NCBI RefSeq assembly: GCF_000473105.1 | Contig: NZ_KI421498.1 | Span: 3,267,009-3,331,008 of the forward strand | Direction of reading: 5' to 3' | Origin: Phaeobacter inhibens DSM 16374 | GTDB lineage: Bacteria > Pseudomonadota > Alphaproteobacteria > Rhodobacterales > Rhodobacteraceae | Length of the DNA: 64,000 nucleotides | In this document: positions 59,137-64,000 of the stretch, one piece after another | Numbering within the stretch: position 1 is the stretch's first letter | Layout of the letters: each line of letters begins with the position of its first letter | Made by a program: the position numbers and the translations under genes | Notes under the pieces: generated by a model | What the model was told of the DNA's origin: nothing | What the model saw: only the letters and a program-made list of their open reading frames with translations | The model's database searches: none

Positions 59137-60024
59137 TCAGCGTTTGCCGTAATAGAGCCCGACCACATGTTCGGCCTGTGCAAAGAACAGCCAGCGCGAG
59201 ACGGCAATACCGGCGATATGCAGGAGCACGGCAACGCCTGCGAACAGGTGTTTGAGCATCAGCCCCTCAACCGGCAGGATCAGGCAGATCAAAGGCAGCG
59301 CGAAGCCAAGGGCGAAGGCGATCACCCGCAGTTTCTGCGCATGTTTGCGCCCGACCACATGCACGAATTCGCGCAGCAGATAGTTGGAGCCGGTATGGGG
59401 CGGCTCAAACGCGCGCACGGTGCCGCGATCGCCAAGGCCAGTGGCGGTGCCCATATTGGTGCCAGAGGTGGCAAAGGCCTGATCGCCCTTGGCCCAATAG
59501 GCCAGCTGCACCGAGCCTGCGATGGCCAGAAGCCAGGGTGCCAGCGCCTCAGCCCCGGCCAGTAGCGACCCGCCCGCAAGGCTGAAAGACAGGAACATCA
59601 CCGGCGTCAGGGACATGTTCCAGCGCGGGATGGTCTTCAGCTGGGTGTAGATCATCGAAGTGGTAAAGACTGTCGCCAGCGACAGCGCCGCGCCCAGCCA
59701 GCCAAGCGCCCACCAATGGGTGTCCAGAAACACCGCGCCAAAAGCAAAAAGCCCCATCACGATGAGGGCTGCAACCGCGCAGATGCCCTCACGGCTGAGC
59801 CAGCTGGTTTTCCACTGGGTGAAGGCGCGCCAGGCCCGTTCCGGTCGGCCGAGGTGAAAGGTGGAGGCCAGTAGCCCGCCCACCGCAAAGCCAAAGGCGA
59901 GGGCATAGAACACAAAGGCCACCCAGCCGGTGACCTCGGGCTTGCCGAGGCCAAGAAAGGCCAGAAGACCAAAACCGAGACCGGAGAGGGTGGTGAAGAT
60001 GATAACGGATGGTGCCGGATGCAT
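59137..60024 (-). CDS. soeC: SoeC/DmsC-like membrane anchor subunit
   Basis: A 295-residue membrane protein with about eight hydrophobic helices, starting MHPAPSVIIFTTLSGLGFGL, with STFHLGRPERAWRAFTQWKT and FVHVVGRKHAQKLRV. It belongs to the DmsC/NrfD-like anchors that pass electrons to or from quinone. As part of a SoeABC-type complex it would deliver electrons from sulfite oxidation to the quinone pool. ATG 60024 overlaps the soeB stop (TGATG). A terminator follows the gene. Confidence 0.88.
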   Translation of the reverse strand: MHPAPSVIIFTTLSGLGFGLLAFLGLGKPEVTGWVAFVFYALAFGFAVGGLLASTFHLGRPERAWRAFTQWKTSWLSREGICAVAALIVMGLFAFGAVFLDTHWWALGWLGAALSLATVFTTSMIYTQLKTIPRWNMSLTPVMFLSFSLAGGSLLAGAEALAPWLLAIAGSVQLAYWAKGDQAFATSGTNMGTATGLGDRGTVRAFEPPHTGSNYLLREFVHVVGRKHAQKLRVIAFALGFALPLICLILPVEGLMLKHLFAGVAVLLHIAGIAVSRWLFFAQAEHVVGLYYGKR

Positions 60025-60818
60025 CAGCTTGCCCCTCCTGACGTTTGTCCCGGAAGCTTATCAAGCGCCTTGTCCAGCCAGCCAAGGAACCCCTTGGGAT
60101 CTTCGGCGACGGGGGCCAGCAGCGGGGCGAGGATGTCGATCTGGTCCTCGATCTGGTCCTTCGGGCGGGGCGGCAGGTATTTGTTCACCGGTTTGGTGCC
60201 CATTTCCGGCATCAGATCCATGCCGGCGCGCGCGGCCACCAGTTTGGAGACATCGCTGTCAGGATCCCCCAGATCGCCAAAATGGCGCGCGCCTGCCGGG
60301 CAGGTCCGCACGCAAGACGGCACACGGTCCACCTCTTCGAGGTTCTCATTGTAGATCCGGTCGACGCAGAGCGTGCATTTCTTCATCACACCTTCGGCCA
60401 GATCCAGCTCGCGCGCGCCATAGGGGCAGGACCAGGCACATAGGCCACAGCCGATGCAATTGTCCTCGTTCACCAGAACGATGCCGTCTTCCACCCGCTT
60501 GTAGCTGGCGCCGGTGGGGCAGACGGTGACGCAGGGGGCGTCTTCGCAGTGCAGGCAGGATTTCGGGAAATGCACCAGTTGGGCCGCCGGGTTGGGCTGG
60601 CTGGCACAGGGGGAGGGCTGCACCTCGTAGGAGTGCACACGGTTGAGGAAGGTGCCGGATGGATCAGCGCCATAGGCGTTCTGATCGCTGAGCGGCGCGC
60701 CATAGTTTTCGGTGTTCCAGCCCTTGCAGGAGATCACACAGGCATGGCAGCCGACGCAGGTATCAAGGTCAATGACCAGACCCATCTTGCGGTCGGTCCT
60801 GGTGGGAAGCTCGGTCAT
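60024..60818 (-). CDS. soeB: SoeB-like iron-sulfur subunit
   Basis: A 264-residue cytoplasmic electron-transfer protein with four clusters of cysteines: DTCVGCHACVISCKG, CLHCEDAPCVTVCPTGAS, DNCIGCGLCAWSCPYGAREL and CTLCVDRI...CVRTCPAGARHFG. These fit four [4Fe-4S] centres of DmsB/PhsB/SoeB proteins. I start at ATG 60818, which overlaps the stop of the gene at 60815-61381 (ATGA). It passes electrons from SoeA to SoeC. Confidence 0.93.
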   Translation of the reverse strand: MTELPTRTDRKMGLVIDLDTCVGCHACVISCKGWNTENYGAPLSDQNAYGADPSGTFLNRVHSYEVQPSPCASQPNPAAQLVHFPKSCLHCEDAPCVTVCPTGASYKRVEDGIVLVNEDNCIGCGLCAWSCPYGARELDLAEGVMKKCTLCVDRIYNENLEEVDRVPSCVRTCPAGARHFGDLGDPDSDVSKLVAARAGMDLMPEMGTKPVNKYLPPRPKDQIEDQIDILAPLLAPVAEDPKGFLGWLDKALDKLPGQTSGGAS

Positions 60819-61381
60819 TGCAGGACCCTCCATTTCGGATCTGTAATCGCCCAGAAAAATCGCAAATTATCGTCGACAAGCGCGGAATAAATCCCCTCGA
60901 CCTTGGTGAGGTTGCCCGCCAGTTTCGCCAAGTGCCACGCATTGTCCAAAGAGCACCAAACCGGTTGGGACATCAGAACCTGATGGTTGTTGGCTTGACC
61001 AAAGTCAAAGCAACGTGAAGCAACCTCTGTGCGCATCGTGTCCAAATGCGGATTGCCCCAGGCCCAGAGAAACTCCTCGCGGGGCGCGAACCAACTACCG
61101 ATGTAGGACAACGGTGTTTCCACGATGCCGCCGCCCGGGAAATGGAACTCAAGAAGGCCAACGTCTTCGTCGTACCCCCAGGTGCCTTGGCCATTGCCGA
61201 TGCCAAAGTCGCGTCTCAGGAGGGTCATCTTCTCGTCAATTTGCACGCAGGCGTGTTGGATCTGCGCATCTAAATCTGGATCCGTCACAGCATGGCGGAT
61301 GTTGCAGTTTTCGCAGGTTACCTCAAATTCAAACATAGGGGGCTGCGTTGGTATTTGGGTGCGTTTGAAAGGCCAGATCAT
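60815..61381 (-). CDS. DUF6882-like protein inserted between soeA and soeB
   Basis: A 188-residue soluble protein, MIWPFKRTQIPTQPPMFEFE at the start, a CENCNIRH metal-like pair (about 27-34), and YIGSWFAPREEFLWAWGNPH followed by AWHLAKLAGNLTKVEGIYSA. The Trp-rich LWAWGN pattern is like that of DUF6882 proteins (from memory, moderate). ATG 61381 overlaps the soeA stop, and its own stop overlaps soeB, both as ATGA. Four of its lines counted by hand average about 51% G+C, below most of soeA. No subunit role in sulfite oxidation is known to me, so it looks like an embedded foreign gene. Confidence 0.8.
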   Translation of the reverse strand: MIWPFKRTQIPTQPPMFEFEVTCENCNIRHAVTDPDLDAQIQHACVQIDEKMTLLRRDFGIGNGQGTWGYDEDVGLLEFHFPGGGIVETPLSYIGSWFAPREEFLWAWGNPHLDTMRTEVASRCFDFGQANNHQVLMSQPVWCSLDNAWHLAKLAGNLTKVEGIYSALVDDNLRFFWAITDPKWRVLQ

Positions 61382-64000
61382 TTGCCCACCTTCCATGTCA
61401 GGTCCTTGGGACCGGTGCCCACCGGTGAGGTTTGAGGCTCTACCGCAGGTTGGCTTTCGTCCAGATCCTGCGGCGCGGCGGCTTTTTCGATCTTTACCTT
61501 CAGATCGAACCACGCGGCCTGACCGGTGATCGGGTCGGAATTGGCCCAGCGAAGCCCGTCGCCCTTCGGCGGCAGCAGCTCGTGTATCAGATGATTCAGC
61601 AGGAAGCCCTTGGTGGCTTCCGGCGCGTTTTCTTCCAGTGCCCAGGCGCCCTTGCGTTTGCCAATGGCGTTCCAGGTCCAGACGGTGTTTTCATTGAGCG
61701 CCGCCATCTCCATCACGGGCACGGTGATTTCACCGTGGGGGGAGGTGACCCTGGCCCAGTCGCCATCGCTGAGGTGGTTTTCGCGCATCAGCTTGGTCGG
61801 CACATAAAGCGGATTGCGGCCGTGGATCTGGCGCAGCCAGGCGTTCTGCGTGCCCCAGGAGTGATACATTGCCATGGGGCGCTGGGTGAGGGCGTTGACG
61901 GTGAAGCCGTCGTTGCCCTGCTGATCGGTTTCATACCAGATCGGCAGCGGGTCCATCGTCTCTTTGATGCGGTCGCGTAGGTGCTCGGGCGGCTGGCGCT
62001 CACCGTGGCCTTCAGCGGCCAGCTGGAATTTGCGCAAGGGCTCCACATAAAGCTGGAACAGATAGGGCTGTGGGCTGTCAAAGAGACCGAGATTCACCGC
62101 CCAGTCCTGATAGGCCATGTTCCAGGGTTTGAAATAGCTGGCCTCGGCCGGGATATGTTCGACAAAGAAACCGCCCTTTTCGATGTATTTGTTCAGCTGT
62201 TCGGGATTCACCTCGCCCCGGCCAACCTTGTCGCCATTCTCACCGCGAAAGCCAGCCAGCGGGCCGATGCCCGGCTTGCGTTCATGGTTCACGATATAAT
62301 CGGCATAGTCCTGCCATTTGGCGGTGCCGTCTTCATGGGTGAAGCCGGGCAGCTTCATCTTATTGGCAAGCTGCACCAGCACGGTCTGGAAACCCCGCAC
62401 ATCGCGGTCGGGTTCGACCACAGGCCAGCGGATCGCATCCGCTGCGCCGTCGGCTTCGCAGATGGGGCGGTCCAGCAGTGAGATGCAGTCGTGGCGTTCC
62501 AGATAGGTGGTGTCGGGCAGGATCAGATCGGCATAGGCCACCATCTCCGACGAATAGGCGTCCGAATAAATGATCCGGGGGATCACATAGTCGCCGTTGT
62601 CATCGGTGTCGGTCAGCATCTCCATCACGCCGCGCGTGTTCATCGAGGAGTTCCACGACATATTCGCCATATACATGAACAGCGTGTCGATCTTGTAGGG
62701 ATCGCCGGCATGGGCGTTGGAGATCACCATATGCATCAGCCCGTGGCTGGACATCGGGTTTTCCCAGGTAAAGGCCTTGTCGATGCGGGCGGGGCTGCCG
62801 TCGGTTTTCAGCGCCAGATGTTCCGGCCCGTGTACAAAGCCCAGATGCGGGCCATCCAGCGGTTTATTCGGGGTGACGCGGCAATGGGGCGCGGGATGCG
62901 CCTCTACCGGTTTGGGGTAGGGCGGCTTGAAGCGGAAGCCGCCGGGGGCCTCCACCGTGCCCAGCAGGATCTGCAACACATGCAGCGCGCGGCAGGTCTG
63001 GAACCCGTTGGCATGGGCCGAGACGCCGCGCATGGAGTGCATGGCGACCGGCCGGCCTTTCATGGTTTTATGGGTTTCACCGCGGAAATCGGTCCATTCC
63101 TGATCCAGCTCAAACGCCTCGTCAAAGGCGACGCGGGCCAGTTCGGCGGCGATGGCACGGATGCGTTTGGCGGGGATGCCGCAACGCTCAGCCACGGCTT
63201 CGGGGGCGTAGTCATCGCTGAGATAGCGCTGGGCCATCAGCTGGAACACCGACACATGGGTGATGCCATTGAGTTCAAACGAGCCGCCCAGATCGGGGCG
63301 CACGCCGCGCATATCAAAAGGCGCCAGCTTGCCGGTGGTGCGGTTGATGACCAGCGGCGCGCCGTGATCGTCGCGCAGGAACAGGCCATAGTCGGGGCTG
63401 TCCGGATCCTGATTGACCAGCACCGGCGCATTGGTGAACTGGCCGAGGTAGTCGAGGTCGATCTTGCCGGCCTTCATCAGCACATGCACCAGCGCCAGGA
63501 TGAACAGCCCGTCGGTGCCCGGCGTGATGCCGACCCAATCGTCAGCCACAGCATTGTAGCCAGAGCGGATTGGGTTTACCCCGATGACCCGCGCGCCACG
63601 CGCCTTGATCTTGCCGATGCCCATCTTGATCGGGTTGCTGTCGTGATCCTCGGCGACGCCGAACAGCATGAACAGCTTGGTATGATCCCAGTCGGGCTGG
63701 CCGAATTCCCAGAACGCGCCGCCCATGGTGTAGATGCCGGCGGTGGCCATATTGACCGAGCAGAAACCGCCATGGGCCGCATAGTTGCAGGTGCCAAAGT
63801 TCTGCGCCCAGAAACTGGTGAAGCTTTGGGATTGATCGCGGCCGGTGAAAAACGCCAGCTTTTCCGGGTTATCCTCGCGGATCGGTTCCAGCCAGCCCGC
63901 GGCGATGTCCAGCGCTTCATCCCAGGAGATTTCCTCAAACTTGCCGGAGCCGCGCGGGCCGACGCGTTTCATCGGCGCGCGCAGACGTGACGGCGCGTTG
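61378..64000 (-). CDS. soeA: SoeA-like molybdopterin oxidoreductase (sulfite dehydrogenase catalytic subunit), partial
   Basis: The N-terminal part lies beyond the window; about 873 residues are visible. The frame is open to base 64000, and the first Met codon at 63972 is internal (RLRAPMKRVGPRGSGKFEEIS). It is a DMSO-reductase-family enzyme with bis-MGD: WDEALDIAAGWLEPI, FMLFGVAEDHDSNPIKMGIG, GVNPIRSGYNAVADDWVGIT and the C-terminal RENHLSDGDWARVTSPHGEI. Together with the four-cluster subunit and NrfD-like anchor it fits cytoplasmic SoeABC, which oxidises sulfite to sulfate in Roseobacters. A DMSO- or polysulfide-type reductase cannot be excluded without the N-terminal Cys motif. Confidence 0.85.
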   Translation of the reverse strand, partial: NAPSRLRAPMKRVGPRGSGKFEEISWDEALDIAAGWLEPIREDNPEKLAFFTGRDQSQSFTSFWAQNFGTCNYAAHGGFCSVNMATAGIYTMGGAFWEFGQPDWDHTKLFMLFGVAEDHDSNPIKMGIGKIKARGARVIGVNPIRSGYNAVADDWVGITPGTDGLFILALVHVLMKAGKIDLDYLGQFTNAPVLVNQDPDSPDYGLFLRDDHGAPLVINRTTGKLAPFDMRGVRPDLGGSFELNGITHVSVFQLMAQRYLSDDYAPEAVAERCGIPAKRIRAIAAELARVAFDEAFELDQEWTDFRGETHKTMKGRPVAMHSMRGVSAHANGFQTCRALHVLQILLGTVEAPGGFRFKPPYPKPVEAHPAPHCRVTPNKPLDGPHLGFVHGPEHLALKTDGSPARIDKAFTWENPMSSHGLMHMVISNAHAGDPYKIDTLFMYMANMSWNSSMNTRGVMEMLTDTDDNGDYVIPRIIYSDAYSSEMVAYADLILPDTTYLERHDCISLLDRPICEADGAADAIRWPVVEPDRDVRGFQTVLVQLANKMKLPGFTHEDGTAKWQDYADYIVNHERKPGIGPLAGFRGENGDKVGRGEVNPEQLNKYIEKGGFFVEHIPAEASYFKPWNMAYQDWAVNLGLFDSPQPYLFQLYVEPLRKFQLAAEGHGERQPPEHLRDRIKETMDPLPIWYETDQQGNDGFTVNALTQRPMAMYHSWGTQNAWLRQIHGRNPLYVPTKLMRENHLSDGDWARVTSPHGEITVPVMEMAALNENTVWTWNAIGKRKGAWALEENAPEATKGFLLNHLIHELLPPKGDGLRWANSDPITGQAAWFDLKVKIEKAAAPQDLDESQPAVEPQTSPVGTGPKDLTWKVGK

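Follow-up and report, generated by a model that had tools for sequence, protein, structure and literature searches.

Stop/start overlaps of the NTGA type pass ribosomes from one gene to the next, and, according to the parts of PMC12548453 and PMC10666635 that deal with such overlaps, a short ORF may exist solely for ribosome delivery. Overlapping gene pairs are enriched for subunits of complexes, and in the reporter work reported there, reinitiation is almost lost when two genes are about 20 nt apart (relevant parts of PMC10666635). The nearest parallel in the literature consulted is provided by the mycobacterial interspersed repetitive units (MIRUs), which, as characterized in a portion of PMC12548453, are short inserts at start codons, with an ORF that is coupled to the downstream gene by a -4 spacing. 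The inserts that are described here, at the junction between soeA and soeB, resemble MIRUs in that their ORF is coupled through NTGA at both ends but, unlike MIRUs, are mostly unrelated to each other, include whole protein-coding genes, and occupy a single operon junction across a family; furthermore, the one spacer type examined for copy number (87 nt, from the sibling genome G001) and the gene considered below are not multicopy. The same inserts share NTGA overlaps with termination-reinitiation pairs and with the leader ORFs of bicistronic designs, the dependence of the downstream gene being a prediction in our case. Unlike bicistronic-design leaders, the ORF that bridges the soe junction is located between two subunit genes, its content appears to have been replaced in the course of evolution, and it may extend for over 200 codons across another gene in a different frame. 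The soe operon itself is represented in Ruegeria pomeroyi by the consecutive locus tags SPO3559, SPO3558 and SPO3557 (in the part of PMC4334477 that lists them).

The locus analyzed here belongs to a 64,000-nt stretch of the Phaeobacter inhibens DSM 16374 genome (hereinafter, the window; genome G000) and shares the A-B-C subunit order with the SoeABC operon but differs from it by the presence of an extra gene between soeA and soeB. All these genes are on the minus strand: the 3' part of soeA, encoding the molybdopterin subunit (PF00384), at positions 61378-64000, with the remainder beyond the window; the extra gene, an ORF of 188 codons, at 60815-61381; soeB, encoding the 4Fe-4S subunit (PF13247 and other Fer4 models), at 60024-60818; and soeC, encoding a DmsC-like membrane anchor (PF04976, E = 5.4e-11), at 59137-60024. 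In terms of Pfam domains, a molybdopterin oxidoreductase, a 4Fe-4S ferredoxin and a DmsC/NrfD-like anchor encoded together make up the SoeABC architecture; the N-terminus of SoeA, MAHTQPQLDTSPPVSDEIRQTTCYMCACRC, shows by eye no Tat-like signal, which fits a cytoplasmic SoeA. Among the NCBIfam matches listed, no equivalog scores above its own cut-off; the sulfite:quinone oxidoreductase activity is a predicted one. Upstream of the operon are genes that we take to be xsc-, TauE- and ackA-like.

The window protein matches DUF6882 (PF21813) over residues 42-182 (E = 1.8e-19) with a score of 70.5 bits against the Pfam curated cut-off of 23.9, which is also passed by all 10 relatives tested; an NCBIfam search with this protein gives no match, and DUF6882 is not named in the literature searched. 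The stop codon of soeA overlaps the start codon of the DUF6882 gene in an ATGA at 61378-61381, and the stop codon of the latter overlaps the start of soeB in another ATGA at 60815-60818, both on the minus strand, so that by the overlap criterion (-4 at each junction) the gene is predicted to be coupled on either side. The G+C content of the gene is 0.544, compared to 0.618 for the available part of soeA, 0.631 for soeB and 0.628 for soeC, and its GC3 is 0.65, compared to 0.76-0.79 for the three soe genes. These observations confirm the preliminary description of this locus as containing a DUF6882-like gene of lower G+C content joined to its neighbors by exact ATGA overlaps.

We propose that the soeA-soeB junction of the Rhodobacteraceae (the family being assigned by the names of the matching genomes) functions as a relay slot. 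Ribosomes would terminate SoeA synthesis at the first ATGA, reinitiate, read the next frame, stop at the second ATGA and reinitiate on soeB, and SoeA and SoeB would thereby be made in step, with their dosage matched. DNA that enters the slot would persist mainly if it contains a frame that is open from ATGA to ATGA or a chain of such frames. The frame across a spacer would matter given that, according to the portion of PMC10666635 on reporters, gaps of about 20 nt nearly abolish reinitiation. In P. inhibens, the slot would be occupied by the DUF6882 gene, which would itself be the bridge and appears to share its first codons and its last 16 nt or so with the short ORF that bridges the junction in sibling species; it also appears to have been swapped recently by two species, through recombination in the arms formed by soeA and soeB. 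The DUF6882 product would be made in step with SoeA and is most likely a dispensable cargo rather than a Soe subunit. Taken as a whole, this explanation, namely, selection on termination-reinitiation from SoeA to SoeB, with DUF6882 as both cargo and bridge, appears to us probable on balance, judging from the genomic comparisons that follow.

The junction was surveyed in 140 loci, comprising 6 DUF6882 carriers from other genera, 7 species of the genus of the window, 27 further loci from a soeB search (after removal of L054 as a duplicate) and 100 stretches from the listed matches of that search; L096, L100 and L103 have no soeB motif, and L060 (gap of -85) was set aside, leaving 136 junctions. 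Among these, which come from related genomes that rank highest in similarity of soeB, the DUF6882 carriers and the congeners being deliberate additions, there are 33 direct overlaps (4 or 1 nt), 73 junctions bridged by a single ORF, 13 bridged by a chain of two ORFs and 17 that are not spanned; thus, 86 of the 136 are spanned by one or two ORFs joined by stop/start overlaps of 4 or 1 bases. The plain A-B-C arrangement that had been expected is too simple: it holds for the direct overlaps, and the other junctions contain a gene or a spacer. In 133 of 137 loci, soeB begins 14 codons ahead of the motif, so the choice of the start is not the driver of this pattern. Gaps of 400 nt or more are bridged in 20 of 26 cases, 8 of which are DUF6882 carriers added on purpose (6 of the 8 bridged). 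The unbridged junctions include two DUF6882 loci (L011 and L015) and the sibling species G006.

The lengths of the spacers are strongly biased. Among the 62 spacers of 20-160 nt, 53 have a length of 1 mod 3, and 57 are open in the bridge frame, compared to 29 and 40 in the other two sense frames. The bias persists when the spacers encoding a recurrent membrane peptide (see below) are removed (44 of 53, p = 1.3e-13) and when each cluster of similar sequences is represented by one spacer (at least 22 of 30, p = 9e-6). In-phase spacers are open in 43 of 44 cases, compared to an average of 22.7 and a maximum of 33 in 1000 dinucleotide shuffles. The soeA gene ends in ATGA in 120 of 137 loci, compared to 24 of 100 open frames of at least 350 codons (soeA included) from the window and six congener loci. 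When all co-directional gene pairs with gaps of 20-160 nt are considered in the window and 13 loci (naive gene calls in related genomes), only 3 of 36 are bridged, and all three are soeA-soeB pairs. The next junction of the same operon, soeB-soeC, could be read in 37 of 42 loci, with soeC sought within 400 nt, and shows gaps of -1 to 59 nt and no gene in between. Against the coupling reading, it has to be considered that G+C-rich DNA favors open frames.

The contents of the slot are mutually unrelated: palindromes, a one-helix membrane peptide, hydrolases, LysE and DUF6882. The membrane peptide, which is conserved and about 50 residues long, was detected in 21 slot loci by a search for the motif GSFIWFVATWDP (L067, L075, L047, L052, L061, L076, L152, L160, L153, L053, L059, L062, L082, L087, L090, L107, L112, L127, L133, L139 and L151); the one such peptide tested has no match in Pfam, and this family may represent an unannotated small subunit of Soe. 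Alpha/beta hydrolases are encoded in seven slots (L046, L071, L074, L082, L114, L154, L161), LysE-type transporters in four (L073, L108, L111, L139), and a member of the RNA-ligase family in a single slot; other genes occur once each, these assignments being made by eye, with one example of each checked by Pfam. The hydrolase and LysE loci are mostly within bridged junctions, L082 and L114 being the ones that are not bridged. In two loci (L039 and L044), a gene on the opposite strand is inserted between soeA and soeB, and the long bridge frame runs antisense to it; the product of this gene ends in what we take to be a VPLPA-type sorting tail.

In the window and in the congener G005, the DUF6882 gene is the bridge ORF itself. 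In six other loci (L010, L012, L013, L014, L168 with its near copy L169, and L172), the DUF6882 ORF has its own start and is one frame off, and the bridge frame stays open across it, extending for approximately 214-274 codons in four of them. Shuffling of synonymous codons keeps the bridge open in 306, 0, 65, 194, 787 and 143 of 2000 trials for L010, L012, L013, L014, L168 and L172, respectively (548 of 2000 for L169), that is, the chance of an open out-of-frame bridge is 0 to 39% of the trials per locus. The combined p = 1.8e-4 applies if the six loci are independent, which they are not, given the one shared frame offset and the close kinship of L168 and L172. For L012, L014 and L172, the bridge would have to begin at a GTG or TTG codon. 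The G959 gene, as read by eye, is coupled to soeA, and a second frame, of 31 codons, begins at the stop of this gene and terminates on soeB.

The genus of the window provides a view of the slot at short evolutionary distances. The soeB gene is present in all seven species, and the DUF6882 gene in two, G000 and G005, the copies of which show no differences over the 564 nt compared. This identity belongs to a 786-bp tract with zero differences (60667-61452 in the window) that covers 634 bases ahead of the first soeB base and 151 bases beyond it, the closest differences on the two sides being at -635 and +152 (numbered from the soeB ATG). Outside the tract, 150-base windows are 83 to 100% identical, typically about 94%, and over a flank of approximately 18 kb, the identity between G000 and G005 is 92.0%, compared to 91.1% between G000 and the sibling G001, in which the gene is missing. 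So short a stretch of identity, with the gene at its centre and diverged DNA around it, is the trace expected of recent homologous recombination through the soeA and soeB arms. It also bears on the suggestion that the extra gene could be an artifact: an identical gene in a second species, in a flank that differs by 8%, makes an assembly error unlikely.

Among the siblings that lack the gene, G001, G002 and G004 have a 79-nt spacer, G006 has an 84-nt spacer that forms an unbridged junction, and G003 has a direct ATGA overlap. The DUF6882 gene begins with ATGATC, as do the spacers of G001, G002 and G004, and its final 16 nt (GAGGGTCCTGCAATGA, 60815-60830, minus strand) can be aligned, at the cost of one gap and one mismatch, to the end of the spacer in G001 and G004. 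Most of the relatives in the same clade end two residues past a conserved tryptophan; the window protein runs on, as W-R-V-L-Q, into the shared end. This end is probably the retained, Shine-Dalgarno-like terminus of an older bridge, and in the simplest history, the central part of an older bridge ORF was exchanged for DUF6882 sequence, and its end, with the likely ribosome-binding site of soeB, was retained. Comparison of the middle of the spacer with the gene reveals no consistent similarity (16, 43 and 264 of 300 shuffles score as high), and on this ground a gain of DUF6882 by the bridge ORF is preferred over its loss in the siblings. The opposite scenario, in which the sibling spacer is the deletion scar of a lost DUF6882 gene, accounts for the matching ends and is less likely with respect to the middle. 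The spacer palindrome was not found elsewhere in the window.

In a sample of 394 genomes of the family (393 genera), soeB is detected at E <= 1e-60 in 285, and DUF6882 in 8 by a single-protein search with the window protein and in 12 by a profile search. This distribution rules out a standard Soe subunit, the alternative that presence of the gene in all soe operons would have implied. The six distant relatives from the single-protein search (21-28% identity) are all encoded between soeA and soeB, and none of the four extra profile matches is; one of these is presumably located between sarcosine-oxidase-like soxB and soxD genes, and the other three before what we take to be a cobM-like gene of a cobalamin operon. 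With the window protein as the query, a pattern scan of named genomes, which is insensitive and may omit the kin of the window, yielded no confirmed relative. The same scan with an alignment of three slot proteins yielded 21 loci, of which 13 are from Enterobacterales or actinobacteria. The gene is in the soe slot in Silicimonas, two Salipiger species, a metagenome-assembled genome (MAG) titled Cytophagaceae, Tropicibacter alexandrii and Mesobacterium pallidum, and outside it in Loktanella sp. S4079 and Citreicella sp. C3M06; three of these named genomes are the same as the sample genomes G163, G335 and G158. The soe locus of the Cytophagaceae-titled MAG (L169) is very similar to that of Salipiger thiooxidans, and this record is probably mislabelled or contaminated. 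Among 398 genomes of the phylum searched with Pfam, 15 have DUF6882, including one more slot member, G959. Altogether, DUF6882 occupies the slot in 12 genomes: besides G000 and G005, these are ten genomes from other genera, two being near copies of each other. It recurs there in at least seven genera.

In a tree of 25 DUF6882 proteins, which does not include those of L169 and G959 or the second copy from G069, 8 of the 9 slot proteins and two Rhodobacteraceae copies from outside soe form one branch (support 96/93). The branch of the window protein is long, and its exact place within the clade is unsure. The ninth slot protein (copy a of G069, L015) groups with cobalamin-, metH- and plasmid-borne DUF6882 proteins. 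A single clade of the nine slot proteins is rejected (AU p = 4e-48, L015 copy a being placed elsewhere), and a clade of these nine with the two outside copies is not (AU p = 0.188). From the composition of this branch and the outlying G069 copy, it would follow that one DUF6882 subfamily is patchily linked to the slot and that at least one other lineage entered it. In G069 (L015/L035), the slot contains two tandem DUF6882 genes, the second of which is interrupted by a stop; the first G069 copy and that of G959 (L209) have starts that by eye resemble signal peptides. The two members of the soe clade that are encoded outside the slot (L167 and L171) have nearby an opposite-strand gene that is presumably DUF1523-like.

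This phylogenetic pattern is a point in favor of a Soe-specific accessory factor, such as an assembly chaperone, an insertase or an inhibitor of SoeA, that is kept where it is needed and lost elsewhere. The concentration of slot proteins in one branch, the recurrence in the slot across genera and the co-directional orientation with soe in all slots that were read are what such a factor would show, and the recurrence of one subfamily in the slot is more than a pure cargo needs. Nevertheless, we consider this explanation unlikely: only 8 of the 285 soeB-bearing genomes of the sample have the gene, close siblings do without it (it is present in 2 of 7 species of the window genus, in 1 of 2 genomes of the genus of G335, and in G959 but not in its congener G383, locus L050, which has a direct soeA-soeB overlap), two members of the clade are outside soe, relatives are coupled to unrelated enzymes, and the slot accepts unrelated genes as well. 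This rarity and turnover, together with the unrelated genes in the slot and the presence of DUF6882 in other operons, make a dispensable coupled cargo most likely, ahead of a Soe-specific factor.

The other operons with DUF6882 raise the question of whether this protein assists metabolic enzymes in general and has been recruited, by way of coupling, into many operons. DUF6882 genes with overlaps of -4 or -1 are found beside or between subunit or pathway genes in L031, L032, L034, L065, L195 and L203 (one overlap of L034 and one of L031 were read by eye); we take these operons to be sarcosine-oxidase-like in L031, cobalamin-related in L032 and L034, and split-metH in L065 and L195, and the gene in L203 to follow a pdxJ-like one. 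In five genomes of one genus, DUF6882 is located 26-34 nt after a gene that is presumably glpK-like. The metH arrangement varies: DUF6882 follows the split metH parts in L065 (G673) and L195 (G1004) and in L065 also lies between the parts, with 1-nt overlaps. On the other side, the gene in L033 has no overlap, many relatives stand alone, no common substrate or cofactor of the neighboring enzymes is evident, and the protein itself has no fold match in the PDB. The AlphaFold model of the window protein (pLDDT 85.5, pTM 0.81) consists of an N-terminal hairpin of low to middling confidence (residues 19-32), a long helix and an alpha+beta core, which suggests a small globular protein; the hairpin lies outside the Pfam match and in this respect the model departs from Pfam DUF6882. 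A Foldseek search against the PDB finds no match at E <= 0.001, the best Z of VIA-align is 4.5, and the PDB sequence matches of the profile are repeat proteins in which no stretch passes alone, save one weak match. The hairpin contains the CxxCxxxH motif, CENCNIRH (residues 23-30; 61292-61315, minus strand), for which metal binding had been suggested; the presence of this motif in just 5 of 10 clade members makes this a weak idea. Given this balance, a general helper function appears quite unlikely. A phage or defense gene was rejected as well: at E <= 0.1, none of four proteins has a match in PADLOC and none of three has one in PHROG. Phage records also contain no match, nor do viral contigs in a pattern-based and hence weak search. 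Six Escherichia plasmid records contain a relative with 27.5% identity.

A different type of explanation removes selection on coupling altogether and makes the bridge frames a by-product of mobile elements that, similarly to MIRUs, insert at NTGA overlaps and duplicate them. Palindromes and repeat-like, element-like sequences fill many spacers, the largest similarity clusters of which have 17 and 7 members, and in the account given in part of PMC12548453, MIRUs insert with -4 coupling. This explanation would extend poorly to the many unrelated sequences of many lengths that are found in the slot and to the protein-coding genes that follow the same frame rule, and the 87-nt G001 spacer sequence, the one spacer type to which this applies, matches only the slot across the seven genomes of the genus, that is, it is single-copy, as is the window gene, with one match in its own genome. 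We therefore regard mobile elements as a quite improbable source of the frame bias. Finally, the capture of a foreign gene without harm to coupling, which the preliminary description had envisaged, is supported in part, by the patchy presence in two of the seven species, the low G+C content and the recombination tract. A more specific form of it, a single gene captured in the ancestor of the species and coupled by happenstance, agrees with the patchy presence, the low G+C content and the failure of the insensitive scan with the window protein to confirm a relative, but is very improbable: the single event is already contradicted by DUF6882 genes at this junction in ten genomes from other genera, and the general frame rule of the slot also speaks against it.

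If the relay-slot explanation is correct, selection on translational coupling would be visible directly in comparative genomics, as lengths that change by multiples of three, as frames kept open and as an ATGA at each end. The relay slot would likewise account for the entry of genes into the operons of complex enzymes without upsetting the balance of subunits, and would imply that an 'extra' gene found amid subunit genes does not necessarily encode a subunit. Tentatively, and with less confidence, these comparisons point to a broader possibility for the family, namely, that the soe operon keeps a ribosome conveyor, the only conserved property of which is an unbroken frame from soeA to soeB, its sequence having been repeatedly replaced; in some lineages, a frame of 200-plus codons might be translated over another gene, and such junctions may serve as protected docking sites for new coupled genes.
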